From positions 38,928-102,927 of IMG/VR virus record IMGVR_UViG_3300028800_000006: a stretch of 64,000 nt of DNA, one strand, 5' to 3'. The position numbers and the translations under genes were made by a program. Shown one piece after another: positions 1,351 through 61,799 of this stretch (positions are counted from its first letter, which is position 1; each line of letters begins with the position of its first letter). The notes beneath the pieces were generated by a model that was not told the origin of the DNA, ran no database searches, and worked only from the letters and a program-made list of their open reading frames with translations. This stretch comes from a virus.

Positions 1351-1796
1351 TCACCCGTCAGCTCGGCGCCGGCTACGCGATCGTCCCCGTCCCGCCCGTG
1401 CCCGACTGGAACACGAGCGCTGGCGGCGGCCCCATCAGCCGGTCGTCGCAATCGTCTGTGCCAGCCGGCGCCGGCAACTACGTGTGGCGCAGCCCGCTCA
1501 ACGTCGTGCGCGAGGCGGAGCCCGGCGCGGGCTGGTGGCAGGATCTCGCGGCCACGAAGATGTTCCTGCCCGACGGCCGGCTCGTGGACGCGAAGCCGTT
1601 TGCCTACGACCAGTTCCGCGGCGGCCCGGACATCATCCAGCCGATCGTGACTCAGTCGTCTCGCCTGCTCTCGCCGTCGTTCGTGGCGATGTGCCTGGGC
1701 GCAGCCGCCGGGTACAAGCTGTCTCGCGACAATCACGTGCTGCACGCGGTCGGCGGCGCGATCGTCGGAGGCTTGCTCGGGCGCGTGTTCGGGTGA
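1347..1796 (+). CDS. Membrane protein with C-terminal glycine zipper
   Basis: 149 aa. The N-terminal two thirds are Pro/Gly/Trp-rich and soluble. The last 40 residues are small and hydrophobic with GxxxG spacing (AVGGAIVGGLLG), typical of a membrane-inserting glycine zipper. ATGA overlap with the preceding gene and GTGA overlap with the following one. Possibly a virion membrane protein; function unknown. Confidence 0.6.
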   Translation: MITRQLGAGYAIVPVPPVPDWNTSAGGGPISRSSQSSVPAGAGNYVWRSPLNVVREAEPGAGWWQDLAATKMFLPDGRLVDAKPFAYDQFRGGPDIIQPIVTQSSRLLSPSFVAMCLGAAAGYKLSRDNHVLHAVGGAIVGGLLGRVFG

Positions 1797-2140
1797 GCGC
1801 CGTGGCGGAGATTGTCACGGTCGTGTGTGACACCAAGGACGGACGTGCTACACGTGTCGAGCGGCGCATGCGCGACGTGCTTGGCGACGAGGGAATCGAC
1901 TGGATTCTTGGATCGCACGATCCGAAAAGTACAGACGCTACGGCGCTCCTCGCAGCTAACGCGCTGGCCCGTGACCGGCTGGTTGGCGAAGGCTTTACGG
2001 GAGCTACTGGCGCCGCTCTCCCGTTTTTGCCCGGACGGCCATACACCGCAGAGAGCGCAAGCACGAGATGCTGCGCCTGCGAAAGGTTGATGCCCGTGTC
2101 AGCCGGTGAGCACGTCACGGAGCCTGCCCATGCCACTTGA
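1793..2140 (+). CDS. WIxGHH-family small protein with C-terminal extension
   Basis: 115 aa from GTG 1793, overlapping the previous stop (GTGA). It carries the family signature DEGIDWILGSHDPKSTDA followed by LLAANALARD at about residues 33-60, plus an unrelated tail of some 50 residues with a Cys-Cys-x-Cys cluster. It is one of at least 12 paralogues in the window; see findings. Function unknown. Confidence 0.7.
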   Translation: MSAVAEIVTVVCDTKDGRATRVERRMRDVLGDEGIDWILGSHDPKSTDATALLAANALARDRLVGEGFTGATGAALPFLPGRPYTAESASTRCCACERLMPVSAGEHVTEPAHAT

Positions 2141-2912
2141 TGCAAACGAAAAAGCGCTGATCATGAAGCGCCGAGCCGCTGCAGGCTGGGACGCGCCTAG
2201 CGGCGTTCCCGATGGCCGCTACCGTGTCGGCCCTGGGGGCAAGCTCAGGCGGGTGAACCTCGGTGTGGCAGATCAAGCACAGGATCTGCTCGCGAACATG
2301 CGCGTGAACTGGCAGGCACGCGGTGTGCTTGGGATCATCGCTGACAAGATCCATCAAGGGTATGCGGTCGCCGAGACGTTCCCGTGGTCAGCTTCATCCC
2401 ACCTATGGCAGTCGCTTCCAGATGTTGTGCGAGGTGTCCAGACACCGAAAGAGGCGGCGATTGATCTGCTGAATCAAGCGAACACCTACGCGCAGAAGAT
2501 CTACGCGACGATTCCAAACGACAGCGCGCCTGTGTCAGCGCAGACACGCCGGACTGTCACAATTGCCGTGAAAAACGCGACGAAGGCGGTGAAGCTCGTT
2601 TCCAGCGCGGCTAACGATCTGAACGCGAGCATGCTGCGCGAGATCCTGGAATATCTGGCGCAGAAAACGAAAGAGGCGGCCGATTACCTCGCGAACAAGG
2701 CGAAGGACAAGTTCGGCTTCGACATCCCAAAGCCGATCATCTACGCGACACTGGCGTTGCTGGGTGTCACGACGCTGTTTATCGCCGCCAAGCTCGTGCA
2801 CACTGTGGTGCTGGGCCGGGCAAGGCTGGCTGAGGCGGAGGAAGAGGCGATCCAGATCGCAGACTCTTCTCGGCGCAAGAAGGCTTCGCGGAAGGTCGCC
2901 ACGATTTCGTAG
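2130..2912 (+). CDS. Helical single-span membrane protein, 260 aa
   Basis: A mainly helical, Ala/Lys-rich protein with a hydrophobic segment near residues 205-227 (IIYATLALLGVTTLFIAAKL) and a basic end (SRRKKASRK). Such architecture would suit a protein tying the virion interior to a membrane, but no homology is recognised. ATG 2130 is chosen; GTG 2106 in the same frame is an alternative and would overlap the previous gene more. Confidence 0.65.
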   Translation: MPLDANEKALIMKRRAAAGWDAPSGVPDGRYRVGPGGKLRRVNLGVADQAQDLLANMRVNWQARGVLGIIADKIHQGYAVAETFPWSASSHLWQSLPDVVRGVQTPKEAAIDLLNQANTYAQKIYATIPNDSAPVSAQTRRTVTIAVKNATKAVKLVSSAANDLNASMLREILEYLAQKTKEAADYLANKAKDKFGFDIPKPIIYATLALLGVTTLFIAAKLVHTVVLGRARLAEAEEEAIQIADSSRRKKASRKVATIS

Positions 2913-2920
2913 GAGATCAC

Positions 2921-3334
2921 ATGGTTTCAGTCACCAACACGAATCTAGGCTTCTCGATCACTTCGGCGATCAAGAGCGTCGGCAAGACCGCGATCAAGGC
3001 GCAGGGGGCTGTGTTCAAGGCGACTGGTGTGGCCTCGAAGATCCCGGGCGTGTCTCAGGGAGCGAACGCGATCGTGCCAGGCTCCGGACGGATCCTCTCG
3101 GCCGGCGGCCAGCTCGACTCGATCGTGGGCGACAAGCTCTTGAGTGTGGGGAGCGGCAGCGGGGGCACGACGACAGCGACTGCTGTTGATCCTGGAACGG
3201 GCGGCGATCCTGGTGTGCCAGCGCAGCCGGGGAAGCGCGGCGGCTCGAAGCAGCTCATCAAGGGTGTGCCGAACACGACGTTGGCCATCGCAGGCGGCGG
3301 GCTCCTGGTGCTGCTTCTCGTGCTGAAGCGGTAG
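2921..3334 (+). CDS. LGFSITS-type single-span membrane protein
   Basis: 137 aa. The N-terminus carries LGFSITSAIKSVGK, nearly the same as the protein at 49540. The middle is Gly/Ala/Ser-rich, and the C-terminus is one hydrophobic span ending in Leu-Lys-Arg (LVLLLVLKR). The shared plan (conserved N-terminal motif, low-complexity middle, C-terminal membrane span with a basic end) suggests a virion membrane component. GGAG precedes ATG 2921 at normal distance, so translation here is Shine-Dalgarno led. Confidence 0.7.
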   Translation: MVSVTNTNLGFSITSAIKSVGKTAIKAQGAVFKATGVASKIPGVSQGANAIVPGSGRILSAGGQLDSIVGDKLLSVGSGSGGTTTATAVDPGTGGDPGVPAQPGKRGGSKQLIKGVPNTTLAIAGGGLLVLLLVLKR

Positions 3335-3338
3335 GGGT

Positions 3339-3367
3339 TTGCTGCCAGACGACTGGCGTTCTACACT
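3339..3367 (+). promoter_or_regulatory. Promoter of leaderless type for 3374
   Basis: TTGCTG (3339-3344), 17-nt spacer, TACACT (3362-3367), then 6 nt to ATG 3374. Confidence 0.5.
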
Positions 3368-3373
3368 CGTGGA

Positions 3374-3547
3374 ATGACCGGACAGCCGAAATCGAACGCA
3401 GGAACCATCGCGGCCGTGATCGGCGGCCTCGCGGCCGTAGGCGGGCTCGTCGCCGCGGGTGTGGCTTCGTCGAGGAAGCCGGCGCCGCGCCTGGGCGGAG
3501 TGCGGCGGCCGGGGCTCGTTAAGAAGCCGTGCGGGTGTGGGCGGTGA
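3374..3547 (+). CDS. Small membrane protein, 57 aa
   Basis: A single hydrophobic stretch (IAAVIGGLAAVGGLVAAGVA, about residues 12-31) is followed by a basic tail ending CGCGR. ATG 3374 sits 6 nt behind a -10-like box, which supports this as a real gene despite its size. GTGA overlap with the next gene. Unknown function. Confidence 0.65.
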   Translation: MTGQPKSNAGTIAAVIGGLAAVGGLVAAGVASSRKPAPRLGGVRRPGLVKKPCGCGR

Positions 3548-3747
3548 CGGCAGCGCAGCGCAAGGAGGCTGCTCGGCTTGCACACGCTGTGCGGAAGATG
3601 GCGCGTGAGGGCGATTGCGGGCACGCATCCAATCTCGTCTACATCATGAGGAAGAAAGGGCTCGTCAGCCCTCGCCTAGAGAACGCTCTCCACCGCGTTG
3701 TTGGCCTGTGCGGCGTACGCGCTCGGGGCTGGCCAACAGACTTCTAA
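3544..3747 (+). CDS. Small basic helical protein, 67 aa
   Basis: Starts at GTG 3544, overlapping the previous stop. Rich in Arg, Lys and Ala with a predicted helix (AAQRKEAARLAHAVRKM) and two Cys. Nucleic-acid binding is possible but not shown. No family recognised. Confidence 0.55.
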   Translation: MTAAQRKEAARLAHAVRKMAREGDCGHASNLVYIMRKKGLVSPRLENALHRVVGLCGVRARGWPTDF

Positions 3748-3753
3748 AGCTAA

Positions 3754-3927
3754 TCATCGCCGCCAGTGAACCGGCCCGCCCATCCAACTGAACAGGATCA
3801 CCAGCAGAACAATCAGCAGCACGACGTGCAGTAGGTTGTTCCCCCGCACCGCAGGCGGCCCGGCCCAGTAGCCTCCGCCCCAACCGGCAAACACCACGAG
3901 CAGGATGATGAGTAGAGGCCACGGCAT
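3754..3927 (-). CDS. Two-span small membrane protein (DUF3309-like)
   Basis: 57 aa from ATG 3927, with two hydrophobic segments (WPLLIILLVVFAGWGGG and LLHVVLLIVLLVILFSW). Size and layout recall the DUF3309 family of tiny membrane proteins, which have no known role. GGAG lies upstream. Its start codon and that of the plus-strand gene at 3926 share a single CATG, an unusual head-to-head arrangement. Confidence 0.5.
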   Translation of the reverse strand: MPWPLLIILLVVFAGWGGGYWAGPPAVRGNNLLHVVLLIVLLVILFSWMGGPVHWRR

Positions 3928-4195
3928 GGACTCCAGGCTGAGTACGATGGTGCCGGTAAGCAAGTACACGTGGGTGGGGCTGACCGATTGGCCTGAAAAG
4001 CCGAACAGCACAGTGTGCTTATGTAGCAGCGCCGTTCATGGACGGGACGAACACGAGGGGATTCTGTGGATTCGTGGAGTGCACACCGAAGCCACTGAGG
4101 ACGGCCGTGCGCTACTGGCCGCATACGCGCTGTCTGATTTGGAGGCGCCGCTCCTGCCGATCAGCGATCCGCGGCTTGCTTCAGCAGCTCTTTGA
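3926..4195 (+). CDS. WIxGHH-family small protein
   Basis: 89 aa. The C-terminal half carries DEHEGILWIRGVHTEATEDG followed by ALLAAYALSD, aligning with the 11 other family members. The start is uncertain: ATG 3905, 3926 or 3947 are in frame, and 3926 fits the usual family length. The last 35 nt overlap the end of the thioredoxin-like gene on the other strand. Confidence 0.6.
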   Translation: MDSRLSTMVPVSKYTWVGLTDWPEKPNSTVCLCSSAVHGRDEHEGILWIRGVHTEATEDGRALLAAYALSDLEAPLLPISDPRLASAAL

Positions 4196-4445
4196 TCGCT
4201 GCGTTCCCGAGCGCGCCGACGAACCGCTTCAGCCGGCCCTGCTTGTCCATCACGATCGTGGTCGGCGTGGCCTTCACCCCGAGCTTGTCGCCGAAGTGCG
4301 CGGCCTTGGTGTCCTGCTGCACGTCGTAGATGCCGATCGGGATCACGCGGCGATACGGCCCGGCCAGCTCCTTGAACCGCGGCAGGTACTCCTCGCAGGC
4401 GCCACAGCCGTGCATCGCGAAGACGAAGACTGCAGGGTTCGCCAC
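4161..4445 (-). CDS. Thioredoxin-like protein
   Basis: 94 aa from GTG 4445. It has the redox motif CGAC within AMHGCGACEEYLPRF near residues 10-25, a later cis-Pro segment (VKATPTTIVMD), and ends in a basic helix. This is the minimal thioredoxin fold. It lies 2 nt after the stop of the membrane protein 4448-4726, so the two are probably co-expressed. It may form or reshuffle disulfides in a virion or envelope protein; that role is inferred. Confidence 0.8.
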   Translation of the reverse strand: MANPAVFVFAMHGCGACEEYLPRFKELAGPYRRVIPIGIYDVQQDTKAAHFGDKLGVKATPTTIVMDKQGRLKRFVGALGNAAIKELLKQAADR

Positions 4446-4447
4446 GG

Positions 4448-4726
4448 CTACGGCTTCCGGCAAGCCTCGAACGACCGCCCAGCGGCGCTCATGAGCTGGC
4501 GGCCGGCGAAGTAGAGCGCGCCCGCGCCAAGCAGCGACACGATGCCGGCCGCGCCGCGCCCCTTCAGCAGCTTGTACGTGCCGAAGAGCGCCACAGGCAC
4601 GCTCGACAGACCTGTGACAGCGCCAGTGACGAGCAGAGGGCGAGCTTGCTCGGCGCACTCGATGTCGGTCGTGGACGGCGCGGCACCCAGGTAGTCGGAA
4701 CCGCTCAGTGTGTAGATCTCGGCCAT
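4448..4726 (-). CDS. Membrane protein, two spans, 92 aa
   Basis: Residues about 30-52 (LLVTGAVTGLSSVPVALFG) and 60-77 (GIVSLLGAGALYFAG) are hydrophobic. No family recognised. ATG 4726 is set by a TATCCT box 6 nt upstream. It is followed closely by the thioredoxin-like gene, forming a two-gene operon divergent from the glycosyltransferase. Confidence 0.6.
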   Translation of the reverse strand: MAEIYTLSGSDYLGAAPSTTDIECAEQARPLLVTGAVTGLSSVPVALFGTYKLLKGRGAAGIVSLLGAGALYFAGRQLMSAAGRSFEACRKP

Positions 4727-5977: not shown

Positions 5978-6625
5978 ATGCACCCGTTTTTGCTGTTACT
6001 CGGAACCGCCGCCGTCACCTACTCGCAGATGCTCGGGCACACCTGGATTGCCGGTGTGGTTGCCGTCATCGGTGGTCTTCTGCAGGCGCTGGCCAAGCGG
6101 GCCAAGATCCCGATGATGCGCTCATTGCCGACGTTCGCACCTGCCGGCTCTGGCCCCGCCATCGCGCTGTCCTTGCTGTTCCTGGTCGCTGGAGCGGTGC
6201 TGATCGCCATTCCGATCGCAGCCACGACGCAATTCGGGATTGCGGCGCGGATCTTCTTCCCTGTGCTTGGCAGCGGCGCGCTCATGATGTTCGACTCTGC
6301 CGATCTGGTCGGCGTGACCACGCCGACGTCTGCCGCAGCGCTGCTGGCGGCCCTGATGCTGCCCTTCGCCTGCGCTCACGTGCAGCCGGTGACGAACTGC
6401 GTGGAGGGTCAGCTCGGCAACCAGGGGCCCGTCATCATTGCAGAGGTCGAGGCCGATCTGGCAGCGAGAAACTTGGAAGATCTGGCGCTCGTAGCCGGCC
6501 GCATCGGATGGGTGACGCTGGGCTGCATCCTCGATGACCTGGAGGCCAAGGGAAAGCTAACCCCAGTGCAGCTGGACACCTCGCGGAAGTTCAAGACAGA
6601 GAATCGCGCCAAGCTGCACGAGTGA
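5978..6625 (+). CDS. Multi-span membrane protein, 215 aa
   Basis: Four or five hydrophobic segments occupy residues 1-130 (for example ALSLLFLVAGAVLIAIPIA), followed by a soluble helical domain of about 85 residues. No family recognised. The stop overlaps the start of the lipoprotein gene (TGATG). Could be holin-like or a virion membrane protein, but neither is shown. Confidence 0.6.
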   Translation: MHPFLLLLGTAAVTYSQMLGHTWIAGVVAVIGGLLQALAKRAKIPMMRSLPTFAPAGSGPAIALSLLFLVAGAVLIAIPIAATTQFGIAARIFFPVLGSGALMMFDSADLVGVTTPTSAAALLAALMLPFACAHVQPVTNCVEGQLGNQGPVIIAEVEADLAARNLEDLALVAGRIGWVTLGCILDDLEAKGKLTPVQLDTSRKFKTENRAKLHE

Positions 6626-6936
6626 TGCGTTTCCTGCTCGCCATACTGGCCGCGTCGATGGTGCTCGGGACCACGGGGTGCCCGAAGCCGTCGCCGACCC
6701 CGGTCGTACCTGTCGTTCCGGCAGATCCGACGTGTGGGCTGGATCAGGCTGCGCATGACGACCTCGTAGACAGCGTGGTGGGCGATCTGAACGGGCTCGA
6801 CACGGCGTTGACGGTCGAGCGGGCACACTACTCGATAGCAACTGTGGGCTGCGTTGTGGACGAGGTCATCGGTGACTTCCACAACGCGCCCGATCTGATT
6901 GCGGCTGCTCAGCAGTGGCGTCAAGCGAACCCATAA
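6625..6936 (+). CDS. Small lipoprotein (spanin-like candidate)
   Basis: 103 aa. The N-terminal signal ends in a lipobox (VLGTTGC near residue 19), followed by a Pro-rich linker (PSPTPVVPVVPADP). The rest is helical and acidic with two more Cys. A short outer-membrane lipoprotein next to a peptidase and lysozyme would suit an o-spanin, but that is inference from position and form. Confidence 0.6.
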   Translation: MRFLLAILAASMVLGTTGCPKPSPTPVVPVVPADPTCGLDQAAHDDLVDSVVGDLNGLDTALTVERAHYSIATVGCVVDEVIGDFHNAPDLIAAAQQWRQANP

Positions 6937-6951
6937 GGAGGAAACCTCACG

Positions 6952-7707
6952 ATGATCGATTTCAGCGCGATGAAGCTCGGCAAGCAGGCAGCTGTCCACG
7001 ATCCGCGCACGCTGCGGCTCGCCGACTACGTGACGAACGCGCTCAAGCCGCCTCCGCGCATCGACTGGAGCACGAAGGTCACGAACCTTGGGATGATGCT
7101 GAACGACAGCCTGGGCGACTGCACGATCGCGGCGGCGGGGCACATGATCCAGACCTGGACAGCCAACAACGGCAGCCAGATCGTTCTGCCCGACAGTGCC
7201 ATCCTGCAGGGCTACGAAACCTTCTGCGGGTACAACCCGAGCGACCCGAGCACCGATCAGGGCGGTGTGGAGGTCACGGTGCTCAACGGGCTGAGGAAGG
7301 TCGGGCTGGGCGGCCACAAGATCTACGCCTACGTGGCGCAGGAGCCGGGCAGCCGGGCGCACATCGAGCTGTCCGTCGACTTGCTGGGCGGCTGCTATCT
7401 GGGAGTCGAGCTGCCGCGCTCGGCGCAGAACCAGCGCGTGTGGAGCGTGCCTCCAGGCGGGCCGCACGGCGATGGCGCTCCCGGATCATGGGGGGGTCAC
7501 GCGATCCCCGCGGTCGCTTACGGGCCGGCAGGCATCACAGTCATCACGTGGGGGCAGCTCCTCACCATGACCTGGAAGTTCTTCACCACGTATTGCACCG
7601 AGGCGTACGGCGTGCTCAGCCAGGACTGGGCGAACGGCGCGAAGACTGCGCCGAGCGGCTTCGACTTCGCTCAGCTGCAGGCGGACCTGGCGGCCATCAC
7701 GGCGTAA
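6952..7707 (+). CDS. Papain-like (C1-type) cysteine peptidase
   Basis: 251 aa. NDSLGDCTIAAAGHMI at residues 51-66 places the nucleophile Cys57 at the start of a helix, and SWGGHAIPAVAYG supplies the catalytic His183. This is the typical arrangement of papain-like proteins found in phage and plasmid genomes. A very strong Shine-Dalgarno (AAGGAGG) lies upstream, so this gene is probably highly expressed. It sits between a lipoprotein and a GH25 lysozyme; cleavage of cell-wall peptides or virion proteins is inferred. Confidence 0.7.
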   Translation: MIDFSAMKLGKQAAVHDPRTLRLADYVTNALKPPPRIDWSTKVTNLGMMLNDSLGDCTIAAAGHMIQTWTANNGSQIVLPDSAILQGYETFCGYNPSDPSTDQGGVEVTVLNGLRKVGLGGHKIYAYVAQEPGSRAHIELSVDLLGGCYLGVELPRSAQNQRVWSVPPGGPHGDGAPGSWGGHAIPAVAYGPAGITVITWGQLLTMTWKFFTTYCTEAYGVLSQDWANGAKTAPSGFDFAQLQADLAAITA

Positions 7708-7711
7708 AGAG

Positions 7712-8089
7712 ATGGCGGCCGTTCCGCTCATCGATCCGTGGTTTGACGCTGCGTTTCTGCGCGAGACGACAGCGAGAAGCACATCCTGCGCTGATCCAGC
7801 GACGATCCAGGGTGCCGATGGACTGTTCCTATGGTGCCCCTGTGGCTACGGCAAGCCGGAATTCCCACTCGCGGGAGGGCGCCCACACGGCCTGCACGTG
7901 TCGTTCTCCAATCCGATCGGCGCACAGCCGGCGCCGCCTGATGCCGGCTCGCAGTCCCGGAACGGTGGCCCGTCGCGCTGGCAGATGAGTGGCACGGGGC
8001 TCGCCGACCTGACCCTGGCCCCATCGATCGCGACCGGAGAGCCGGAGTGCTGGCACGGCTACATCCAGAACGGACAGGTGCTCTTGTGA
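7712..8089 (+). CDS. DUF6527-like protein
   Basis: 125 aa. It contains a WCPCGYG segment, HGLHVSFSNP, a WQMSGTGLADLTLAPSIATG stretch and a CWHGYIQNGQV end. This order matches small metal-binding-looking proteins (DUF6527) common in phages and often found next to lysis genes; their function is unknown. GTGA overlap with the lysozyme gene suggests coupled translation. Confidence 0.6.
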   Translation: MAAVPLIDPWFDAAFLRETTARSTSCADPATIQGADGLFLWCPCGYGKPEFPLAGGRPHGLHVSFSNPIGAQPAPPDAGSQSRNGGPSRWQMSGTGLADLTLAPSIATGEPECWHGYIQNGQVLL

Positions 8090-8745
8090 CCCTCCCCGCT
8101 GACCGCGCCAAAGGTATCGACGTCAACGGCTGGCATCCCATCCACGACTTCTCTGCCCTCCCTGCCGACTTGAGCTTCGTGGGGGTCAAGGCCACTGAGG
8201 GCAACACGGTCACCGACAAGGCGTTACAGGCCCACCGAGATGGCCTCCGGGCGCGTCCTGGGCTCGATCTGGTCATCTATTACCATTTCGCCCGGACGGG
8301 CCGCCCAGAGACGCAGGCTGTGCGCCTCCTGGATGCTGTGGGACCTCTCCAGGCGAACGAACGGCTGTGCCTGGACCTGGAGGTGCTCCCAGACGACCCA
8401 GGAAGCGTCCTGGCGTGGGTGGACGCGTTCTACGGGCGGATCCGGCGGTCCTGTCCGGGGCAGCGGCAGCTCATCTACACTTCGAAGCGGATCTGGAGCC
8501 AGTTCGGCAACCCCGGGTGGGCAGGTGCGGCCGACATCGACCTGTGGGCGCCGCGGTACAACGCGGTAGGGCGTGAGCCCGAGCTGCCGGCGCCGTGGAC
8601 GCGCTGGACGGCTTGGCAGTGGACAGATGGGGAGGCGGTGCCGTTCACCTGCCCGGGAGTGGGGGCGTGCGACGCGAACGTCTGGAACGGCGATCGAGCC
8701 GCGGTCAGGGCGTGGGTGGCCGGGAAGTCACTTCTTCAGGGCTAA
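8086..8745 (+). CDS. GH25 muramidase (endolysin)
   Basis: 219 aa from GTG 8086. It has the GH25 hallmarks: GIDVNGW at 10-16, KATEGN at 35-40, YYHFAR near 65-70, the catalytic pair in LDLEV (Asp97, Glu99), and IDLWAPRY with a later WQW. It cleaves MurNAc-GlcNAc bonds. No signal peptide or wall-binding domain is seen. Last gene of its block; the opposing operon ends just inside its 3' end. Confidence 0.9.
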   Translation: MTLPADRAKGIDVNGWHPIHDFSALPADLSFVGVKATEGNTVTDKALQAHRDGLRARPGLDLVIYYHFARTGRPETQAVRLLDAVGPLQANERLCLDLEVLPDDPGSVLAWVDAFYGRIRRSCPGQRQLIYTSKRIWSQFGNPGWAGAADIDLWAPRYNAVGREPELPAPWTRWTAWQWTDGEAVPFTCPGVGACDANVWNGDRAAVRAWVAGKSLLQG

Positions 8746-11968: not shown

Positions 11969-12462
11969 CAGCGTGGCTCCTTTTTCGCGCGTCGCCTCTG
12001 CAGCGCGCCATGATGCTCGTCGAACTCACGGCGGTTCGCGAACACATCTTTGCTCTTCCCGACCTTCGTCTGCAGCTCGGACACGAACGTGTTCCGCGAG
12101 ATCTTGCAGGTGTTGTTCATCATGATGAGGCTACCAACGCAGTAGGGCGCAGCGTCCACCGCGGTCTCGAAGTCGGCGCCTTCCGTTTCGAGCTTGTTCA
12201 CGGCCATGTGACAGGGGAACTTCCCATCAGCCATGACGATGTCCGTGATCTCGCTCGGGTGGCCGTGCGCGCCGATCCAGCCGGCAGGGGCAGCTCGGCG
12301 GAACGGGCAGTCACCGCACGGTTTGGTGGGATGCCCTGACTTCGACGAAGGCTCGAAGATCTGCGGCTCGTAGTCGAGGCAGTAGCAGCCGGGGATGGTG
12401 CACTTCTGGAAGAAGCCGCTCTCGTGCTCGTCTGGCGCGTGGCCACAGGTGCAGTCGGTCAT
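11968..12462 (-). CDS. Cys-rich protein with CGDCPF motif (DUF6283-like)
   Basis: 164 aa. The first 35 residues hold a C-x-C-GH...C-x4-C-x-C metal site. CGDCPFRRAAPAGWIG (about 64-79) and FPCHMAV (about 98-104) match the Cys/His-rich DUF6283 pattern, probably a zinc or iron-sulfur site. Function unknown. ATG 12462 overlaps the previous stop. Confidence 0.6.
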   Translation of the reverse strand: MTDCTCGHAPDEHESGFFQKCTIPGCYCLDYEPQIFEPSSKSGHPTKPCGDCPFRRAAPAGWIGAHGHPSEITDIVMADGKFPCHMAVNKLETEGADFETAVDAAPYCVGSLIMMNNTCKISRNTFVSELQTKVGKSKDVFANRREFDEHHGALQRRRAKKEPR

Positions 12463-12782
12463 CGCTTCGGCTCCGTCCGCTTGATGCACGCGTCGTTCAG
12501 CTCCCACATCTGGTCACTTCCGATCGGCCCCGCAGTGCCGTCCTTCCACGGGCTCTCTCCGACGAGGGCCGTCGCTGCGCTGAGCGCCTTCGCTTCGGGG
12601 CTGCCGACGATGAGATGTCCAGGCATCCAGCGCCGGCCCTCGTCAGTGATGATAAGCGTGCGCGTTGAAACAGACGACGGACGCCCGTACGCCACGCGGA
12701 ACAGATCTCCAGCGCGGCCGATGACATGGGCGTGCTTGATCTTGAGCCCGGTCGGAATCGTGATGGGGTCGCCGACGTTCAT
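12459..12782 (-). CDS. WIxGHH-family small protein (divergent)
   Basis: 107 aa. The N-terminus MNVGDPITIPTG closely resembles the family member at 60568 (MNVGDPVTVV), and DEGRRWMPGHLIVGSPEAKA with a following LSAATALVGE is a diverged form of the family signature (Trp-Met-Pro in place of Trp-Ile-x). A 27-residue tail follows. ATGA overlap at the start. Confidence 0.65.
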   Translation of the reverse strand: MNVGDPITIPTGLKIKHAHVIGRAGDLFRVAYGRPSSVSTRTLIITDEGRRWMPGHLIVGSPEAKALSAATALVGESPWKDGTAGPIGSDQMWELNDACIKRTEPKR

Positions 12783-13398: not shown

Positions 13399-13838
13399 GA
13401 CGCCACCCCCGCCAAGCGAGCCTCGGCCGCCTCGGCACGCGCCAGCGCTTCCCCGAGCTGTCCCTGCAGCGAGCCGATCTTCGTCCTGGCCGCCTCATAC
13501 TCCTTCTTGAGTGCCTCCAGCTCGGTGGCCAGGGTGATGCTGCGGCCTCGCCAGTAGGTGTTGTCCTTCTTCACCGCGGCGACGCGCGTCTCGGCCAGGG
13601 CCAGCGCGGTCTCATACTGGGCAGGCAACAGCAGGAGGCTATCGAGCAGCCGCGTGAGCGCCTCGTGCCCGAGCCGAAAGGCGCAGTCCTCGCGGTGCCA
13701 GGCCCATGGGACGTCAGCGTCTATACCCACCACCGATGGGATGCGGCCGTCACAGCACGCGCCGTCGTTCCGGGTGCTCTCCACGGTGAGGGCGGCGAGC
13801 AGCTTCGTCAGCGCCTCCCGATCGGTTGAGGTGATCAT
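13395..13838 (-). CDS. Coiled-coil hypothetical protein, 147 aa
   Basis: An N-terminal region with two adjacent Cys (GACCDG) is followed by a long coiled coil over about residues 75-145 (LATELEALKKEYEAARTKIG). No family recognised. Confidence 0.55.
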   Translation of the reverse strand: MITSTDREALTKLLAALTVESTRNDGACCDGRIPSVVGIDADVPWAWHREDCAFRLGHEALTRLLDSLLLLPAQYETALALAETRVAAVKKDNTYWRGRSITLATELEALKKEYEAARTKIGSLQGQLGEALARAEAAEARLAGVAS

Positions 13839-14329
13839 CGCCGTGCTTCTTTCTGGGCAGCCTCGTATGCTGCACGGAGCGCCTTGACGTCGGCGCTGTC
13901 CGGCGCGTGGTGGCCTCGAATCCAGGTGACGCCTTCGTCGCCGAGACGGAAGCCGCCACCACCACGCCCTGTGATGGTGAGCCTGCCACTTCCTTCGGGA
14001 GAACCGTTCAGGTACGTGAGCGGCCCGCAGTACGCAGGCCCTTCGGGCTCGGTGTGGGGGCGTGCATCCAGTTCCTGCTCTGTGCAGAAGATGACCATCT
14101 TGGCAAGCTCGTGGCGAAGCTTGACCAAGCTCGGGTTGAACGTGAGCAAGAGCAGCCCGCTGGCTTGATGTGCCGCCTGTGCAAAGGCGGTAGCGCGGCG
14201 GTCGTCGGCCTCGCGCCGGTTCCGCACCTCATCCATCAGGCTGGCGGCGAGCTGCTTCACTTCGAGCTGCTCCTGCGTTTGGGCCTCGGAAACGCCCTTC
14301 TTGACGCCCTTCCGTTTCGCTTGCATCAT
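13835..14329 (-). CDS. Helical domain fused to WIxGHH-family domain
   Basis: 164 aa, first gene of the minus operon. Residues 1-75 are charged and helical (KQLAASLMDEVRNRREADDR). Residues about 80-164 are the family domain ending GDEGVTWIRGHHAPDSADVK and ALRAAYEAAQ. The fusion to another domain suggests the motif is a modular binding unit. ATG 14329 is supported by TAGGGT 7 nt upstream. Confidence 0.7.
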   Translation of the reverse strand: MMQAKRKGVKKGVSEAQTQEQLEVKQLAASLMDEVRNRREADDRRATAFAQAAHQASGLLLLTFNPSLVKLRHELAKMVIFCTEQELDARPHTEPEGPAYCGPLTYLNGSPEGSGRLTITGRGGGGFRLGDEGVTWIRGHHAPDSADVKALRAAYEAAQKEARR

Positions 14330-14832: not shown

Positions 14833-15026
14833 CGAAGGCCGAGGCGCGACGGAACATCTATAGGTGCCTTGCGTTGCTAACTGACCCCGCAGCCGGGCAC
14901 GAGAACGACTTCTTGTACTCCGACCAGAAAGGCAACGAATACTCGGAGGCGGACACGAAACGACTGACAGAGGCGCTGGAGCACATCGTTGCCGGCTTCT
15001 ACAGGAAAGCCAGCACGCTTCGATGA
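14829..15026 (+). CDS. Hypothetical protein, 65 aa
   Basis: GTG start overlapping the previous stop. Helical, charged (MTKAEARRNIYRCLALL...). No family recognised. ATGA overlap with the following gene. Confidence 0.55.
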   Translation: MTKAEARRNIYRCLALLTDPAAGHENDFLYSDQKGNEYSEADTKRLTEALEHIVAGFYRKASTLR

Positions 15027-15466
15027 CCCTCCGCCGAGATAAAGACGTCGTCAACGACGCCTGTGTGAAGGCGCTCCGCATGGAGCCGCAGCTGGCCCAG
15101 AAGCTGTGCGAAGAGGCTCGCCTGCTCGCGCCGCGGTTCGTCCACCGAAAGTCTAAGGGTGACGTGGCCGAGTTCTCGCGCTCGCTCATCCGCCGCGGGC
15201 TCGGGTGGTCACACGAGCAGTCTGAGCTGATGGAAGCGACCGAGCTGAAGCCTAAGCGCGTCGGTGGCCTGACGATGGAGCCTGCCGTGCATCGCCGCCT
15301 GACCGAGCTGGCCCAGCGGCACTTCGGTGGCGGTGTGGCCTCGGCCGCGCGGCACCTGCTGCGCCTGGGCTTGGGCATGAACGAAGGAGAGTCGCTGCGG
15401 CGCGAGGAGAAGTTCGCATCGTTGGCGGCAGCGATCCGCGAGGTGCGGGAGGCGCATGAGGGATGA
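15023..15466 (+). CDS. Putative ribbon-helix-helix-like protein, 147 aa
   Basis: Two related segments occur: FSRSLIRRGLGWSHEQSELM and SAARHLLRLGLGMNEGESLR, each preceded by a short strand-like stretch. This resembles a tandem of ribbon-helix-helix units, which would bind operator DNA as a dimer or pseudo-dimer. Its position next to the operator region fits a regulator, but this is inferred. Confidence 0.5.
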   Translation: MTLRRDKDVVNDACVKALRMEPQLAQKLCEEARLLAPRFVHRKSKGDVAEFSRSLIRRGLGWSHEQSELMEATELKPKRVGGLTMEPAVHRRLTELAQRHFGGGVASAARHLLRLGLGMNEGESLRREEKFASLAAAIREVREAHEG

Positions 15467-15616: not shown

Positions 15617-15853
15617 ATGAGCGAGCTGAAGCCAGGGGACGGAATAACCGTGATGGAGCACTGGCACATCAACTACGCCACAGTCACGGACGTCTCCGCC
15701 GCCGATTTTAGTGCCGCCTACGTCAGCCTGCCTGGCTGGTCGTGCAAGCTAGGTTTCCAACTCGAAGGAACGCTGTGGATCCGTGGGCACCATGCAGATG
15801 GCTCAGACGATGTTCAGGCTCTGCGGGCCGCCTACTTATTGACCCGCCGCTAG
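15617..15853 (+). CDS. WIxGHH-family small protein
   Basis: 78 aa. N-terminus MSELKPGDGITVMEHWHI, then beta-rich centre, then EGTLWIRGHHADGSDDVQA and LRAAYLLTRR. A canonical member with the full signature. First of a run of four copies at 15.6-16.9 kb. Confidence 0.75.
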   Translation: MSELKPGDGITVMEHWHINYATVTDVSAADFSAAYVSLPGWSCKLGFQLEGTLWIRGHHADGSDDVQALRAAYLLTRR

Positions 15854-15874: not shown

Positions 15875-16138
15875 ATGCCCAAGCAGACCATCCCGGACTC
15901 GGTCAAGAAGGTCACAGACACCGTTCACGTGCAGAAGGCTGAGGTCACGCTGCCGATCGACGCGTTCCAGACCATCTCGGTGCAGGACTACAAAGACGCG
16001 CTCGCGGTCATCCAGCTCGTGCGTGACTCCGCTCTGGCTGTGCTGGAAGTCGACGAGGACAACGCTGACGTCACTGCCGTGGAGTACAAGCTGGTCGGTG
16101 GAGACGCGGCCGTGACGGTCACGCAGGTGAACACGTAG
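15875..16138 (+). CDS. Hypothetical protein, 87 aa
   Basis: Acidic, mixed alpha/beta (ITLPIDAF-type strands and the helix DYKDALAVIQLVRDSALAVL). It interrupts the run of WIxGHH genes but lacks their motif. ATG 15875 is supported by its own promoter box 7 nt upstream. Confidence 0.6.
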   Translation: MPKQTIPDSVKKVTDTVHVQKAEVTLPIDAFQTISVQDYKDALAVIQLVRDSALAVLEVDEDNADVTAVEYKLVGGDAAVTVTQVNT

Positions 16139-16142: not shown

Positions 16143-16376
16143 ATGGTTGCCATTGGGGGCAAGATTACGGTGGTCGCAGCCTCCGACTCCTCCTTCACGC
16201 TCGTAAAGGAAATTCTAGACATCTCCACAATCGGTGCATTCGTTGCTGGAGTGGGTGGGACACGCGTCTGGTACCACCCGGAACATGAGGGTGTGCACTG
16301 GATTCACGGTAGCCACCTGCCTACGTCGTGCGAAGTGCAGGCGATGCTGGCCGCGCACAGGCTGGTGAGCGAATGA
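16143..16376 (+). CDS. WIxGHH-family small protein
   Basis: 77 aa. N-terminus MVAIGGKITVVAASDSSF, C-terminus HEGVHWIHGSHLPTSCEVQA and MLAAHRLVSE. ATGA overlap with the next copy, so this and the two following copies are likely translated from one message. Confidence 0.75.
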   Translation: MVAIGGKITVVAASDSSFTLVKEILDISTIGAFVAGVGGTRVWYHPEHEGVHWIHGSHLPTSCEVQAMLAAHRLVSE

Positions 16377-16633
16377 GTCTGCGCGTAGGAGACAAGGTGA
16401 CGACGGTGGTTCCGGGTGTACCTGAAATAGGCACGCTGGTGAAACGCGTGACAGCTGTTCACGAGGACGCCTTTCAGGCCGCGTGGTATCCTGACCACGC
16501 GGCCAGTAGCCCAGGACCATCGTTCGGCTACCTTCTCGAAAACGAAGGCGTGCAGTGGATTTCTGGCGAACACACGGCAGGGTCTTCGGATGCGATAGCG
16601 CTGCTCGCAGCAAACGTACTGGTGCGCTCTTGA
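16373..16633 (+). CDS. WIxGHH-family small protein
   Basis: 86 aa from ATG 16373. N-terminus MSLRVGDKVTTVVPG, C-terminus NEGVQWISGEHTAGSSDA and ALLAANVLVRS. The VGDKVTxV start is shared with the next copy. Confidence 0.75.
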   Translation: MSLRVGDKVTTVVPGVPEIGTLVKRVTAVHEDAFQAAWYPDHAASSPGPSFGYLLENEGVQWISGEHTAGSSDAIALLAANVLVRS

Positions 16634-16911
16634 TTGACATCTGCGTTGGGGACAAAGTTACGATCGTGCTCTCGAACTGGCCTTTAGTGGTCCACAAGTA
16701 CGTGACGCGTGTTGATCCTGGCGGCGGGTTTGTCGTTGATCATGAAATGAACGAGCACCGAGATAACGAGGGTGTCGAGTGGATTCGTGGCCACCACGCA
16801 GGCAACTCTGATGACGTGCGCGCGTGCCTTGCTGCACGAGCGCTTGTGCGCGAGGACGCTGTGCCTCACCACCGCGATCCTGATGAGCTAACCTGGCTCG
16901 AACGCCAATGA
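16630..16911 (+). CDS. WIxGHH-family small protein (TTG start)
   Basis: 93 aa. TTG 16630 overlaps the previous stop (TTGA) and gives the expected family N-terminus (IDICVGDKVTIV). C-terminal NEGVEWIRGHHAGNSDDVRA and CLAARALVRED, then an 18-residue polar tail. ATGA overlap with the glycosyltransferase gene that follows. Confidence 0.7.
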   Translation: MIDICVGDKVTIVLSNWPLVVHKYVTRVDPGGGFVVDHEMNEHRDNEGVEWIRGHHAGNSDDVRACLAARALVREDAVPHHRDPDELTWLERQ

Positions 16912-29458: not shown

Positions 29459-31243
29459 GTGCCCGCTGTCGGCGACATCATCACAGGGCTCGTCACCTAC
29501 GCGACGAACGCCAAGATCCGCGCGGTTGGACCCGTCAAGAGCGTCTTGGGCGCTCGGTTCTTCGCCCAGCTCCGCTCTCCGCTGAACGGCGCCAACTACA
29601 ATAGCTACTTCAACCTGTCTGACGAATACATCACGTGGGTGCCAGGCGATCAGACTGACGAGACCAGCAGTCCATTCGGGCCCAACACCGCGACCTTGAC
29701 CGTCGATGGCGTCTCGACCGGAGCGCTCCAACTGGGCAGCTTTCCCGTCACAGGTCTCGTCAGCTACCAGACCCGAGCGTGGGTCAAAAGCGTAGGCCGC
29801 TGGTTCGATCTCGTGCCTGCCGAAGCCCCGGCACAGCCACTAGTCGTCATCGACGCTCCTGACGGCCGCCAGTGGGTCAGCACCGAGACTCCAAACCAGC
29901 AGTTCCTGGCGGCCACATTCTGGTCGGTGTCCCCTCAGCGCGGCTCGGACGAGGCCATTGGGTGGGGAATGACTGAAGAAGAAGCGGACGCGCACCCGCT
30001 TCGCACGTACCACGAATTGAATCGGCGGCTTGTCGGATGGAACCAGAACAACACGTGCGCGGGGATGCCCGACCTATCGCTGTCGATCCACAACCTGGAC
30101 GCAGTAAACACAGAGGACACGTTCGCCGTCCTGACAAATCTGATCTCGCCAAACTATCAGAAGTACGTGCGCATCCGCGGCACCCTGAACCCTGTCGACG
30201 TGAACGCTGTGGACCGCGAGATCACAGGCTACGTGCCTGCTGATCCTGTCACCAACACAGAGCGCGAGATCATCATCGCTGGCTTGGGGCTCGCTCCGCA
30301 ATACGTTGGAAAGATCGTGCAGACGGTAGATGGGCAGCGTACTGGTGTAGTGACTCGGCAGAACGCGGCCGACCGCCTGGCCATCAACGAGATCCGCGAT
30401 GGAGCTGCCGCGATCGACGGCTCAGGCGTCACGGCTGTGTCTGATTTTGCTGTGGGCGACCACGTGAGCTTTCTGGATCCAACGCAGCTTGCTGACTGGC
30501 CGTTTCCTCCCTACCTTCAGTTTCCGCTCCTCGCACAGACGCGGATCGATGTCGGCACGTCTGGGCTGTTCCCAGATGGCCACCTGGGCAGCTCATGGCC
30601 ATTCATCAGCCAGTGCCTGCTCGGATCTGGTGTTCCAAATCGGCAGGAGTTTTTGCTGAGCGGCGGTGTTGCCGCGAGCATCATGTCGAGCGGAATCTTC
30701 GCGACACACGCGAATGCGTTCCAGAGCGGATACGCCATCTGGACGTCATGTGCAGTTCTCATAAACGGTGATGGCCCATTCATCGGGGACTACGCGCTCG
30801 TTCTGGGTGACGAGAACACCTTCGTTCCGTACGGCGCAGGTGGCGTAGGTTTGCGCGCATTCGGCGACAGCCCATGCACAGTGACCCTGTCCGATCAGTC
30901 TACGATCGCTTCTTTCGGCATGGGTAGCGCCGTAATCGCCTTGACGAGCACACACACAGGTCAGCCAGGAGACTTCGCCGGAAACGATACGGGAGGAACG
31001 GGGGCACGCTGGTACGGTACGGGCAACACAGGCTACCTGCTCATCCTGGGAAAGAACACGCGGAGCAAGTTCCCCAAGGTCCGCGCCACGGTCGTCACGT
31101 CAGCTCCGTACGCAATCAACATCGCTGGTAAGGGCCCGGGAGACACTAACCCGCTCTACAATCGAAACTTCAGTGACATCCCCATCGTCATCACGACGGG
31201 TTCACTGAGTGTGTTGGCGGATTCGTCACCTGACAGCTTCTGA
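29459..31243 (+). CDS. Large hypothetical protein, 594 aa, lone plus-strand gene among fibre genes
   Basis: No family recognised. It begins with a repeated small beta module (VGDIITGLVTYATNAKIRAV and FPVTGLVSYQTRAWVKSVGR), both followed by a short spacer, then a long mixed domain with Gly-rich turns (GTGNTGYLLILGKNTRSKF). No signal peptide or membrane segment. Likely a virion surface protein. Its 3' end overlaps the radical SAM gene tail by 53 nt. Confidence 0.65.
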   Translation: MPAVGDIITGLVTYATNAKIRAVGPVKSVLGARFFAQLRSPLNGANYNSYFNLSDEYITWVPGDQTDETSSPFGPNTATLTVDGVSTGALQLGSFPVTGLVSYQTRAWVKSVGRWFDLVPAEAPAQPLVVIDAPDGRQWVSTETPNQQFLAATFWSVSPQRGSDEAIGWGMTEEEADAHPLRTYHELNRRLVGWNQNNTCAGMPDLSLSIHNLDAVNTEDTFAVLTNLISPNYQKYVRIRGTLNPVDVNAVDREITGYVPADPVTNTEREIIIAGLGLAPQYVGKIVQTVDGQRTGVVTRQNAADRLAINEIRDGAAAIDGSGVTAVSDFAVGDHVSFLDPTQLADWPFPPYLQFPLLAQTRIDVGTSGLFPDGHLGSSWPFISQCLLGSGVPNRQEFLLSGGVAASIMSSGIFATHANAFQSGYAIWTSCAVLINGDGPFIGDYALVLGDENTFVPYGAGGVGLRAFGDSPCTVTLSDQSTIASFGMGSAVIALTSTHTGQPGDFAGNDTGGTGARWYGTGNTGYLLILGKNTRSKFPKVRATVVTSAPYAINIAGKGPGDTNPLYNRNFSDIPIVITTGSLSVLADSSPDSF

Positions 31244-38000: not shown

Positions 38001-38789
38001 TCAGACCACGGGGCGCTTCAGCAGACCTTCGAGGGTCTCCCGAACGTCGAAGCCCAGGTTCGTGGCCGGGATCGAGGTCCAGTCGTAGTACCCCTCGACC
38101 GTGGGGAACGGAGGACCGGAGGCCGCGTTGGCACCCGCGATGCCGTACGCCGCCTGCGGGGACAGGATGCCCACGTAGGCGATGTTCGGCTTCAGCCAGA
38201 TCGGCAGAACGAACGCCGACTGGTCGCGCGGCGACGCGATGCCGTTGCTCGCCAGCTCCAGCGCCGTGGTGGTGCCGAAGACGGTGGGACCGCTGCCCTG
38301 CGGGTACTTCTCCACGGGGCCCTCGGACTGCACCTTCTGGTTGACCTGGAACTTGTGGTAGGTCTTCCGCAGGAAGTCGAACAGCACGCCGCCCGCCGTG
38401 TTGGCCGGGTCGTAGCCGCCCAGGTGGACGTTGCGCGAGAACTGGATCGCGCCGCCGCTGTTGGTCTGGTCCTGCAGCTGGAACGACTGCTGCGCGTTGT
38501 TGCGGCCCATCTCGCGAACGATCTGCAGCTGGATGCTGTAGATCAGCATCTCCCAGCCCTCCTGCAACCCGGTGTCACCCGAGCGCGGGATGTTGGTGTC
38601 GACCAGCGTCAGCGTGCGCTGACCGCCCGGGATGGGCGAGCCGGCGGCGCCGATGAAGGTCTGCAGGGGCTGCGCATCGCCGCCCTCGAACTCCACCGTG
38701 TGGTAGAGGCGATCGTGCGTCCAGTCCGCGAACTCGATCGGGAAGGGGACGCCCCGAACCCGAACAGTGAGAGTACCCGTCGATGCCAT
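38001..38789 (-). CDS. Candidate major structural (capsid) protein
   Basis: 262 aa, soluble and beta-rich (GTLTVRVRGVPFPIEFADW at the start; RTLTLVDTNIPRSG; VGILSPQAAYGIAG near the end), with no signal or membrane span. Support for high expression: AAGGAT Shine-Dalgarno, isolation as a single gene, and a very strong terminator behind it. It lies next to a membrane protein and an Arg-rich miniprotein. The size would fit a jelly-roll capsid protein, but no sequence family was recognised, so the call rests on context. Confidence 0.45.
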   Translation of the reverse strand: MASTGTLTVRVRGVPFPIEFADWTHDRLYHTVEFEGGDAQPLQTFIGAAGSPIPGGQRTLTLVDTNIPRSGDTGLQEGWEMLIYSIQLQIVREMGRNNAQQSFQLQDQTNSGGAIQFSRNVHLGGYDPANTAGGVLFDFLRKTYHKFQVNQKVQSEGPVEKYPQGSGPTVFGTTTALELASNGIASPRDQSAFVLPIWLKPNIAYVGILSPQAAYGIAGANAASGPPFPTVEGYYDWTSIPATNLGFDVRETLEGLLKRPVV

Positions 38790-46850: not shown

Positions 46851-47068
46851 CAGCGTTTCTTCTCCCAGGGCCGAGCGCAGCCCTTGGCGTAGAACTGGTC
46901 CGTGAGTTGGTGGACCGTCGACCGCCGCGCAAGTCCTGTCTCGATCTGATCGAGCATCACACTTGCGATTTTGCAGTCTCCGGCGCGCAGCGCACCGCGG
47001 AACCTGCGGATCGCTTTTGCTGTGCTCGTGCGCCCTACGACATCGAATTGGTTGTGTCGAGCAGCCAT
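46850..47068 (-). CDS. Small basic helical protein, 72 aa
   Basis: ATG 47068 overlaps the stop of the transglutaminase-like gene. Arg/Lys-rich helices (TAKAIRRFRGALRAGDCK) and a basic end. No family recognised. Confidence 0.55.
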   Translation of the reverse strand: MAARHNQFDVVGRTSTAKAIRRFRGALRAGDCKIASVMLDQIETGLARRSTVHQLTDQFYAKGCARPWEKKR

Positions 47069-58751: not shown

Positions 58752-59312
<561 letters not shown>

Positions 59313-59539: not shown

Positions 59540-60099
59540 TGGCACAATTCGTGAACATGAGGCCCACCATGAAACGCCAGCATCCTCTCGCCGGAATCCT
59601 TCTCCTCATCGCCGCGGTGTTCGTCGCGTACTCCCCGAGCTGCGGCATCATCGGGCAGGGCATCCATCGCGCCACAGTGTTCCTGTTCGGCCACACCGGG
59701 CTCCTGCTGCTGGTCATGGGGCTGGTGGTGAGCGGCCTGACCATGACCGGGCTGGCGGGCCTGTTGTGGCGGCTCGTGGTGGCGGCCTGGAAGGCGCGGA
59801 GGTCCCAGCCACAGCTCGTTCGGCCGGCTCCTCAGCCGCGTGCAGTCACACCGAAGACGTTCCACGTGGTGCTGCAGGCTGCACCAGCGCTGCCTCCGCC
59901 CATCGTGGTGCCTCCGGCTCCTCCAGTCGCAAAGCCTGACCCGCGAGCAGACGACATGAACACGGTTCGCTCCGGGCTCAAGTTCTTGGGGTACAAGCCG
60001 CCCGAGATCGAGTCGGCGCTGCAGCACATCGACACGACCGCGAGCATCGAGGCGATGCTGCGCGCCGGGATCGCCGTCCTGCGGAAGAAGGCAGCATGA
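59539..60099 (+). CDS. Membrane protein with C-terminal RuvA/UBA-like domain, 186 aa
   Basis: Two membrane segments (AGILLLIAAVFVAYSPSCG and FGHTGLLLLVMGLVVSGLTM), a Pro-rich linker, then about 45 residues (VRSGLKFLGYKPPEIESALQ onwards) that match the RuvA domain III/UBA-like helical bundle with the LGYKPxE turn. In RuvA this domain contacts RuvB. A membrane-held copy is unusual; a possible role is binding a helicase or ATPase at the membrane. Confidence 0.65.
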   Translation: MAQFVNMRPTMKRQHPLAGILLLIAAVFVAYSPSCGIIGQGIHRATVFLFGHTGLLLLVMGLVVSGLTMTGLAGLLWRLVVAAWKARRSQPQLVRPAPQPRAVTPKTFHVVLQAAPALPPPIVVPPAPPVAKPDPRADDMNTVRSGLKFLGYKPPEIESALQHIDTTASIEAMLRAGIAVLRKKAA

Positions 60100-60338
60100 C
60101 GAAAACGCTGAATAGAGGCGATCTGATAACTCGACTTGTCGGTAACGACCGCATCGAGCATGGACGCGTCGCCGGTGTATGGTTCAGTCAACTAGGCTTC
60201 GAGTACATTCCATCTATGGTCGGGATCAGGATAAACCAAGAAGGGATAACGTGGATCCGCGGGCATCACGCTGACGACTCTCCAGAGGTTCTCGCGCTTC
60301 ACACCGCCTACCTCCTCACCCGGGGGGTGGTGGGGTGA
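60096..60338 (+). CDS. WIxGHH-family small protein
   Basis: 80 aa. N-terminal MTKTLNRGDLITRLVGND, C-terminal QEGITWIRGHHADDSPEV and LALHTAYLLTRG. ATGA overlap with the membrane protein upstream and GTGA overlap with the next copy. First of a run of four at 60.1-61.8 kb. Confidence 0.75.
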   Translation: MTKTLNRGDLITRLVGNDRIEHGRVAGVWFSQLGFEYIPSMVGIRINQEGITWIRGHHADDSPEVLALHTAYLLTRGVVG

Positions 60339-60571
60339 GCCCGCCTCCGCAAGCTACGGGCCCCATTGTCGTGACGGTTGTCGTGGCTACAACCGTAGCG
60401 GCTGCATACTCTCCTCGCGGAGCCGTGCTCGCTCACCACGTCGGCATGAAATACGACCCACGCTATGAGGGCATTTCGTGGATACACGGCGCGCATACTG
60501 AAGACAGCCAAGAAGGGCAAGCGCTACTGGCTGCGTACTTCCTGAGCAACGGTGAACGGGTCACAAGGTGA
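60335..60571 (+). CDS. WIxGHH-family small protein
   Basis: 78 aa from GTG 60335. The N-terminal half is beta-rich (IVVTVVVATTVAAAYS); C-terminal YEGISWIHGAHTEDSQEG and ALLAAYFLSNG. Confidence 0.75.
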   Translation: MSPPPQATGPIVVTVVVATTVAAAYSPRGAVLAHHVGMKYDPRYEGISWIHGAHTEDSQEGQALLAAYFLSNGERVTR

Positions 60572-60819
60572 ACGTCGGAGATCCTGTAACGGTCGTGCAC
60601 CACGACCACACCATCCGTCCTTCAACCGTTGCGTTCGTCGAAGCAGACCGATCCAGCTTTATGGTGGAAGACGATGCACCACTGGTCGAACTGTATGATG
60701 CCCACCGCGAAGGCATCACCTGGATTTCAGGACACCACGAAACAAACTCGCCAGAGATCCGATCTCTTGCCGCAGCGTACCTACTCGCCGAATTGCCTGC
60801 CGGTGACAGCTCGGCGTAA
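60568..60819 (+). CDS. WIxGHH-family small protein
   Basis: 83 aa from GTG 60568. MNVGDPVTVVHHDHT start, REGITWISGHHETNSPEI and LAAAYLLAE end. Its N-terminus is the closest match to the minus-strand copy at 12459. Confidence 0.75.
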   Translation: MNVGDPVTVVHHDHTIRPSTVAFVEADRSSFMVEDDAPLVELYDAHREGITWISGHHETNSPEIRSLAAAYLLAELPAGDSSA

Positions 60820-60829
60820 AACCTTCTCC

Positions 60830-61045
60830 ATGACCAAACCTGACCACTTCGGCGCCATTGTCCTCGCCATCATCAGCGCGACCATCTGCATCTTTGCGTC
60901 TGGCGCGTTGAGCTGGAAAGGCCGCGTGGCGCTCGTGCTCCTCACCCTTTTCACGATCTTCGTGTGGGTGCAGCCCGAGGCAACTGGCGCCGTCATCCTG
61001 CGCTTCCGCTTCGCCACTGAACGCTGGCTCAAATCATTGAGGTGA
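60830..61045 (+). CDS. Two-span membrane protein, 71 aa
   Basis: ATG 60830. Hydrophobic segments GAIVLAIISATICIFASGAL and VALVLLTLFTIFVWVQP, basic end (RWLKSLR). No family recognised. Confidence 0.6.
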   Translation: MTKPDHFGAIVLAIISATICIFASGALSWKGRVALVLLTLFTIFVWVQPEATGAVILRFRFATERWLKSLR

Positions 61046-61049
61046 CCCC

Positions 61050-61556
61050 ATGCACGCTGTAGTCGCTCTGCTCGCACTCCTGGCCGCTGAACCAGTGCCG
61101 TTCTTCAAGGGCGACCGCGTTCAGCTTCCTGTCGACCCGCACCAGCACGTCGTGTACGGGCCCGAGCTGCCTGATCCAATCGCCACGGAGTGCGGCGTCC
61201 GCGACAAGGCGTGTCTGGCCGAGCACGACTTTCGTGTGGTCACACTCGCAGCTGCCCAGCACGATCCGAACTGGTGCGACCAGGCGGTGGACTCGTTCGA
61301 GTGCCGGGACATCTACGCCATGATCGTTGGCGACAGCGGCCGGATGGATCCGATGCTCACCGACCCCTGCACGTACGTCGTGCGCACCGATCACGGAGTG
61401 GCCGTGCTGTACTCGAAGCCGAAGGCCCGGTGGATGGTGTCGGCGAACTGGGGATGGCACGCACCCCAGTTCATTGGGGTGTGCAAGGACCCGGGCATGC
61501 TGCCTGCGGTGGGCGTGCAGACGTTGCCGGCGTTCCCGTGGGTCACGAAGAAGTGA
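61050..61556 (+). CDS. Secreted Cys-rich protein, 168 aa
   Basis: Signal peptide (MHAVVALLALLAAEP), then a mature part with at least six Cys likely paired in disulfides. No family recognised. The window's thioredoxin-like protein could assist it. GTGA overlap with the next gene. Confidence 0.6.
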   Translation: MHAVVALLALLAAEPVPFFKGDRVQLPVDPHQHVVYGPELPDPIATECGVRDKACLAEHDFRVVTLAAAQHDPNWCDQAVDSFECRDIYAMIVGDSGRMDPMLTDPCTYVVRTDHGVAVLYSKPKARWMVSANWGWHAPQFIGVCKDPGMLPAVGVQTLPAFPWVTKK

Positions 61557-61799
61557 GCGCCGAGGTCAAGCTTGACCTCGGCGCTCCTGTGACGCTGCTG
61601 TACATCATCGGCGGTAATGAGCTACGGTACAAGCACGGATACGTCCTCGCACTCAACCCGGAAGGTTTCGTTGCACGCGTAACGGCGATCGACGTCACCT
61701 ACGAGAGCCGCGAGTATGGAACGTGGTGGATCCACGGCCACCACGACGCCGACGAATGAAATGGATGCGCTGCTAGCCGCGAACGCGCTGGTGCGCTAG
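61553..61799 (+). pseudogene. WIxGHH-family copy with apparent frameshift
   Basis: From GTG 61553 the frame reads to YGTWWIHGHHDADE and stops at TGA 61757. The missing tail (DALLAANALVR) follows at once in the +1 frame and ends at TAG 61797, exactly as in intact copies. Either a one-base loss disabled this copy or it is read by +1 frameshifting at GAA-TGA, which resembles the prfB-type stop context. The truncated product would be 68 aa. Confidence 0.6.

Follow-up and report, generated by a model that had tools for sequence, protein, structure and literature searches.

The SH3-like fold is already known, as is the lineage-specific expansion of accessory genes in viruses. The phage protein family analyzed here resembles SH3-like barrels such as Spt5 KOW, Tudor, PWWP and KapB (1y71) in its predicted five-stranded barrel and in the 3-10 turn before the last strand, but has no sequence similarity to them. 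The Foldseek E-values were not below 0.04 at TM-scores of about 0.5, and the EGxxWxRG turn and the ALxAAxLL helix set the phage family apart. DUF2187 (Listeria phage LP-031), DUF1642 and DUF7241 are comparable in size and predicted fold and are phage accessory proteins with no assigned role, whereas their identity to the family is 9–14% and the motif is not in common. They normally occur in one copy per genome.

In large DNA viruses, multi-copy host-range (accordion) families show lineage-specific expansion with birth and death at fixed loci. These have another fold and other hosts and are similar to the barrel family in their evolutionary pattern only. As far as the accessible text of two reports goes, T4-like phages amplify counter-defence genes in tandem, for example in the escape from toxIN (PMC9391042) and for SegB (PMC13096335). 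The copy number at those loci likewise changes, there through recombination. They are recent duplications, whereas the copies described here are old, highly diverged and maintained, and their part in counter-defence is one that we infer. What is new is a deep, maintained and highly diverged family of such a kind in one phage clade.

Family copies in the window and in related phages

The window comprises 64,000 nucleotides (positions 38,928–102,927) of the IMG/VR virus record IMGVR_UViG_3300028800_000006, which has a size of 102,927 bases. A sequence-only reading had listed 12 genes with the C-terminal signature EGxxWIxGxH...ALxAAxLL in this stretch, regarded as a single, diverged multi-copy family. 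All 12 genes were confirmed, including the VGDxVTxV-like N-terminal strand, and the terminal branches were found to average about 1.2 changes per site. Chance similarity was ruled out by whole-domain profile E-values down to 3e-26, whereas reversed ORFs gave no match below E 0.1. The set of 12 was incomplete, however: seven further copies form a minus-strand array at record positions 2615–4708, upstream of the window, resulting in a total of at least 19 copies in the source record.

The proteins of the family are about 75–85 aa in size. The copy at 1793..2140 (+) has a C-terminal extension, overlaps conserved neighbors in a probable virion-gene cluster and has a positional counterpart in the relative G002. 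The profile aligned to the C-terminal half only for the copies at 3926..4195 (+), whose start is uncertain, and 13835..14329 (−), in which a helical N-terminal region precedes this half. A further profile match with a C-terminal extension was located at 12459..12782 (−).

Two runs of four genes had been described for the remaining copies. All eight are present, but the runs are interrupted by the unrelated ORFs 15875–16138 and 61050–61556. The first run (array B) stands with a conserved 147-aa gene at its head (15023..15466, +), homologues of which lie beside the same array in three relatives. It has a ribbon-helix-helix-like look, judged by eye, and is without a Pfam match. The family copies are located at 15617..15853, 16143..16376, 16373..16633 and 16630..16911 (all +; profile matches), the last one with a TTG start and a C-terminal extension. 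An 87-aa gene at 15875..16138 (+), conserved in comparison with the relatives, lies within the array and outside the family. The second run consists of 60096..60338, 60335..60571 and 60568..60819 (all +; profile matches), the latter two with GTG starts, and of 61553..61799 (+). Inspection of the reading frames of this last copy revealed a break between the WIHGHH and ALLAANAL blocks: a stop follows WIHGHHDADE, and the ALLAANALVR end is found in another frame at about 61767, so the copy is frameshifted or mis-assembled. Several adjacent copies overlap by 4 bases (16376/16373, 16633/16630, 60338/60335 and 60571/60568), as in translationally coupled genes. A membrane protein with a RuvA C-terminal (UBA-like) domain (59569–60099, +) directly precedes the copy at 60096 and has distant counterparts in the relatives. 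A protein with a long Ala/Thr-rich low-complexity tract is encoded at 58764–59312 (+).

Relatives were identified via the most conserved virion-region protein (window 38001–38789), resulting in six virus records of 89–122 kb. Other proteins common to these phages are mostly 35–70% identical and broadly syntenic. Iterated profile searches of six-frame ORFs yielded 66 family copies in five phages, namely 19 in the source record and 21, 8, 17 and 1 in relatives, and none in the two most distant relatives. A comparison of copy number between related genomes had been proposed in the sequence-only reading, and the number was indeed found to vary between 0 and 21. These counts are lower bounds, since the virus records are not marked complete. 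The copies fill about 5% of the phage genome.

The absence of any other recognizable domain was borne out against the Pfam, PHROGs and NCBIfam profiles, none of whose families matched two or more members (best E-value of any one member 0.0023, unrelated). A PADLOC scan of 40 members returned two weak matches for one member, among them PDC-M64C (E 4e-4), and neither appeared when ten members were rescanned. PDC-M64C was rejected as the family identity, being matched by 1 of 40 members and not reproduced in these ten. Searches by tblastn against cultured phages gave noise only (E 0.3 or above) or nothing, pattern scans of IMG/VR with three alignments gave the same phages again or nothing, and no convincing match came from PDB sequences searched by profile. 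Scans of bacterial genomes yielded neither the family nor the presumed capsid protein described below. These sequence searches showed the family to be confined to one phage clade in the collections covered.

The arrays are found at matching loci between conserved flanks across the relatives. In four phages, array A adjoins an HTH gene, a 92-aa gene and a 117-aa membrane-like gene, and comprises 7, about 11, 2 and 1 copies. In a more distant relative, two of these flanking genes are present and the copies are absent. Array A was scanned for promoters and terminators, and none were detected. The median terminal branch length in the family tree was 1.19 changes per site. The tree has little resolution (0 starred branches), so that of its groupings only that of the locus A copies was used. 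This grouping required 10 changes compared to 16.8 in shuffles (0 of 500 as low); copies of other loci cluster less or not at all. The long branches and the clustering at locus A fit a history in which copies were duplicated within loci long ago and then diverged, were lost or decayed. Copies have been gained, lost and disabled between relatives. Two are disabled, the frameshifted copy at 61553 and a copy of the relative G003 in which a stop codon replaces the Trp that is invariant elsewhere. The clearest one-to-one pair is formed by the orthologues G001_44847 (L049:4847-5275) and G003_6304 (L058:6304-6726), in which the family domain is fused to a helical C-terminal part that ends with AKLPRELRxxAF.

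Predicted fold and conserved positions

An AlphaFold2 model of the product of 15617 was built from a 40-sequence alignment (pLDDT 96.4, pTM 0.85). It contains five strands (residues 9–14, 17–26, 30–35, 42–46 and 54–56), a 3-10 turn at 47–49 before the last strand and a C-terminal helix (64–76). The fold is thus predicted with high confidence to be an SH3-like, five-stranded and partly open barrel with a C-terminal helix. Foldseek retrieved mainly barrels of the SH3/KOW/Tudor/PWWP type with TM-scores of 0.5–0.57 and E-values of 0.04 or worse, many of which are protein-binding, and also small uncharacterized phage barrels including DUF2187 and DUF1642. The matches thus make the fold class clear, but not a particular family. 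Membership in the KOW/NusG transcription factors was rejected, since Pfam KOW gave no match in the family and an NGN domain would not fit into members of this length.

The constant half of the protein consists of the 3-10 turn (EG), the last strand (WxRG) and the helix (ALxAAxLL). The following conserved columns are located in these three elements: W in 64/65 sequences, G in 63/66, E in 57/66, G in 57/65, A in 55/63, A in 55/63 and L in 59/59. The barrel, in contrast, is hypervariable, with an entropy of 3 bits or more in most of the columns 11–48, and almost every copy has loops and faces of its own. The net charge of the members ranges between −8 and +8 (median −1.7), which argues against one shared ligand.

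The Trp-Ile-x-Gly-His core had been considered a binding or catalytic site. The His was identified in 27 of the 65 copies reaching this position (27 of 39 long-loop copies) and was lost by a 3-residue deletion in 26 copies. A catalytic role is therefore unlikely, as the residue is missing in over half of the copies, and a WIxGxH enzyme was rejected. The core is likewise not supported as a binding site. For the Trp and Gly at the strand and the 3-10 turn, the model suggests that a structural role is enough.

Candidate roles of the copies

Variable adaptors, decoys, anti-defence proteins and virion parts had all been named as possible roles in the sequence-only reading. This range is narrowed by the SH3-like fold and by members that are joined to virion-type pieces. 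We tentatively infer that the copies are clade-specific, diversifying protein-binding modules for host interaction, probably in counter-defence. Host-directed modules shaped by an arms race are the best explanation because the copies are dispensable in relatives, are mostly located in accessory operons, partly beside regulators, and combine a fixed scaffold with changing faces. Each copy would be produced in infected cells as a module that binds proteins, and the host target, most likely a defence or housekeeping factor, would differ from copy to copy. The copy number and the divergence would be explained by an arms race, and fibre-type virion proteins may have taken up the same barrel module as an N-terminal or adaptor domain. 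On the other hand, no member resembles a known counter-defence protein, and high divergence can also come from weak constraint.

The main rival is a role as virion adaptor or decoration, in which the barrels would be components of the capsid or fibres that attach receptor-binding parts or make these variable. This is rather unlikely for the family as a whole and may hold for a subset. In a 594-aa fibre-like protein (29459..31243, +), the family domain makes up the N-terminal ~65 residues, with 43% identity to G002_80277 over 79 aa (E 4e-11) and 44% to G003_44651 over 63 aa (E 8e-11). The body of this protein is weakly similar to a fibre of the relative G006 (E 0.02). The member G001_34946 continues into a 53-residue module (E about 1e-11) also carried by giant fibre proteins of the source phage and of all six relatives, and G003_42511 has a collagen-like tail (weak match, E 0.09). 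Apart from matches to orthologues, all conspicuous matches of C-terminal tails are to virion-type proteins. Together with the copy at 1793, which like its counterpart in G002 sits in a probable virion operon, these tails favor a virion role for at least some members. Most copies, however, are located in accessory operons of small ORFans by DNA-binding regulators, away from virion genes, and charge and surface are too variable for a repeated lattice part. Since two relatives carry no copy and one carries a single copy, the family cannot consist of essential virion parts.

Two members from different phages end in a capsid-like segment, SAGLDFLRKTYNKWHVSQ and SAGVIGSFMRKTYDRF, compared to AGGVLFDFLRKTYHKFQVNQ of the presumed major capsid protein (38001..38789, −), which is a further point for a virion role. 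This protein, the most conserved of the virion region (65–86% identity), contains FLRKTYHKF and is presumed to be the capsid protein on the basis of conservation and position only; its AlphaFold2 model (pLDDT 29) was left unused. The same segment has been considered for decoys, members whose barrel would bear pieces of capsid or fibre proteins of the phage itself and which would occupy the host sensors for those proteins. In these phages, F[LM]RKTYxxF is restricted to the presumed capsid protein and the two members. When about 15,000 ORFs were searched without bias with a capsid profile, these two were also the best non-capsid matches, in the same segment. The sensing of capsids by bacterial immune systems has a precedent in CapRel, according to the accessible part of that report (PMC11578894). 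Nevertheless, the decoy reading is improbable: the two matches (E 0.65 and 1.7) are each alone not significant, the segment is found in only 2 of 66 members and in none of the window, and the capsid identity of the 38001 protein is presumed. Since the motif was first spotted by eye, the capsid-like tails are a lead only. Equally improbable is a display module, in which a variable barrel on the constant turn-helix scaffold would show the phage's own capsid or fibre pieces or novel faces and thereby mislead many host sensors.

A role as nucleic-acid-binding or transcription-related small barrels of the KOW/Tudor/PWWP type could be derived from the Spt5 KOW and PWWP domains among the nearest folds and from the HTH gene adjoining array A. 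It is likewise improbable given TM-scores of only about 0.5, the slightly negative median charge with many strongly acidic members, and the absence of a conserved basic patch. Least probable is a near-neutral or selfish expansion, in which small genes of low cost and little function would be duplicated and then decay. The varying copy number, the decaying copies and the very long branches would fit this reading. Against it, nearly all copies have retained the constant half although the remainder is saturated, the majority of the reading frames are open and about 5% of the genome is taken up by the copies, so that selection probably maintains them. Decoys, nucleic-acid binding and near-neutral expansion are less likely than host-directed modules or virion parts.

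The barrel family has the appearance of a set of binding tools specific to these phages, directed against the host or employed on the virus particle. Found in no library searched, filling about 5% of a phage genome and ranging from 0 to 21 copies between relatives, it is likely an arms-race hot spot. Should different copies block different systems of the host, as the preferred host-directed reading would have it, each array would be a ready-made set for finding new defences and their inhibitors on a single scaffold. The split into a constant and a variable half would make the domain a natural small-barrel binding scaffold.

Other features of the phage genome

A packaging-type ATPase related to HerA/FtsK (L001:6410-8134, +; record positions 6410–8134) matches phrog_2666 (E 3e-14) and HerA in the PDB. 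Among the proteins tested, no classical portal or tail genes were found. The phage of about 100 kb may be non-tailed and would be very large for that kind.

Large collagen-like fibre proteins are encoded in the window at 25578–28634 and 33420–37115 (−). The latter, like the giant fibres of all relatives, contains a repeated module of ~54 residues of the RYYAVDGVxGxD... type. A tyrosine recombinase (window 10313–11044, −) with a DnaJ-type CXXCXGXG zinc insertion is conserved in the relatives. The queE-, queC- and DpdA-like genes at L001:10597-12693 (−) have the look of a 7-deazaguanine DNA modification, judged by eye. A transglutaminase-like protein (window 47068–48555, −) is interrupted by an intein (Hint/intein splicing domains). 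In addition, a tRNA-Ile with the anticodon AAT, unusual for a bacterial virus, was identified at 42630–42705 (+) of the window.
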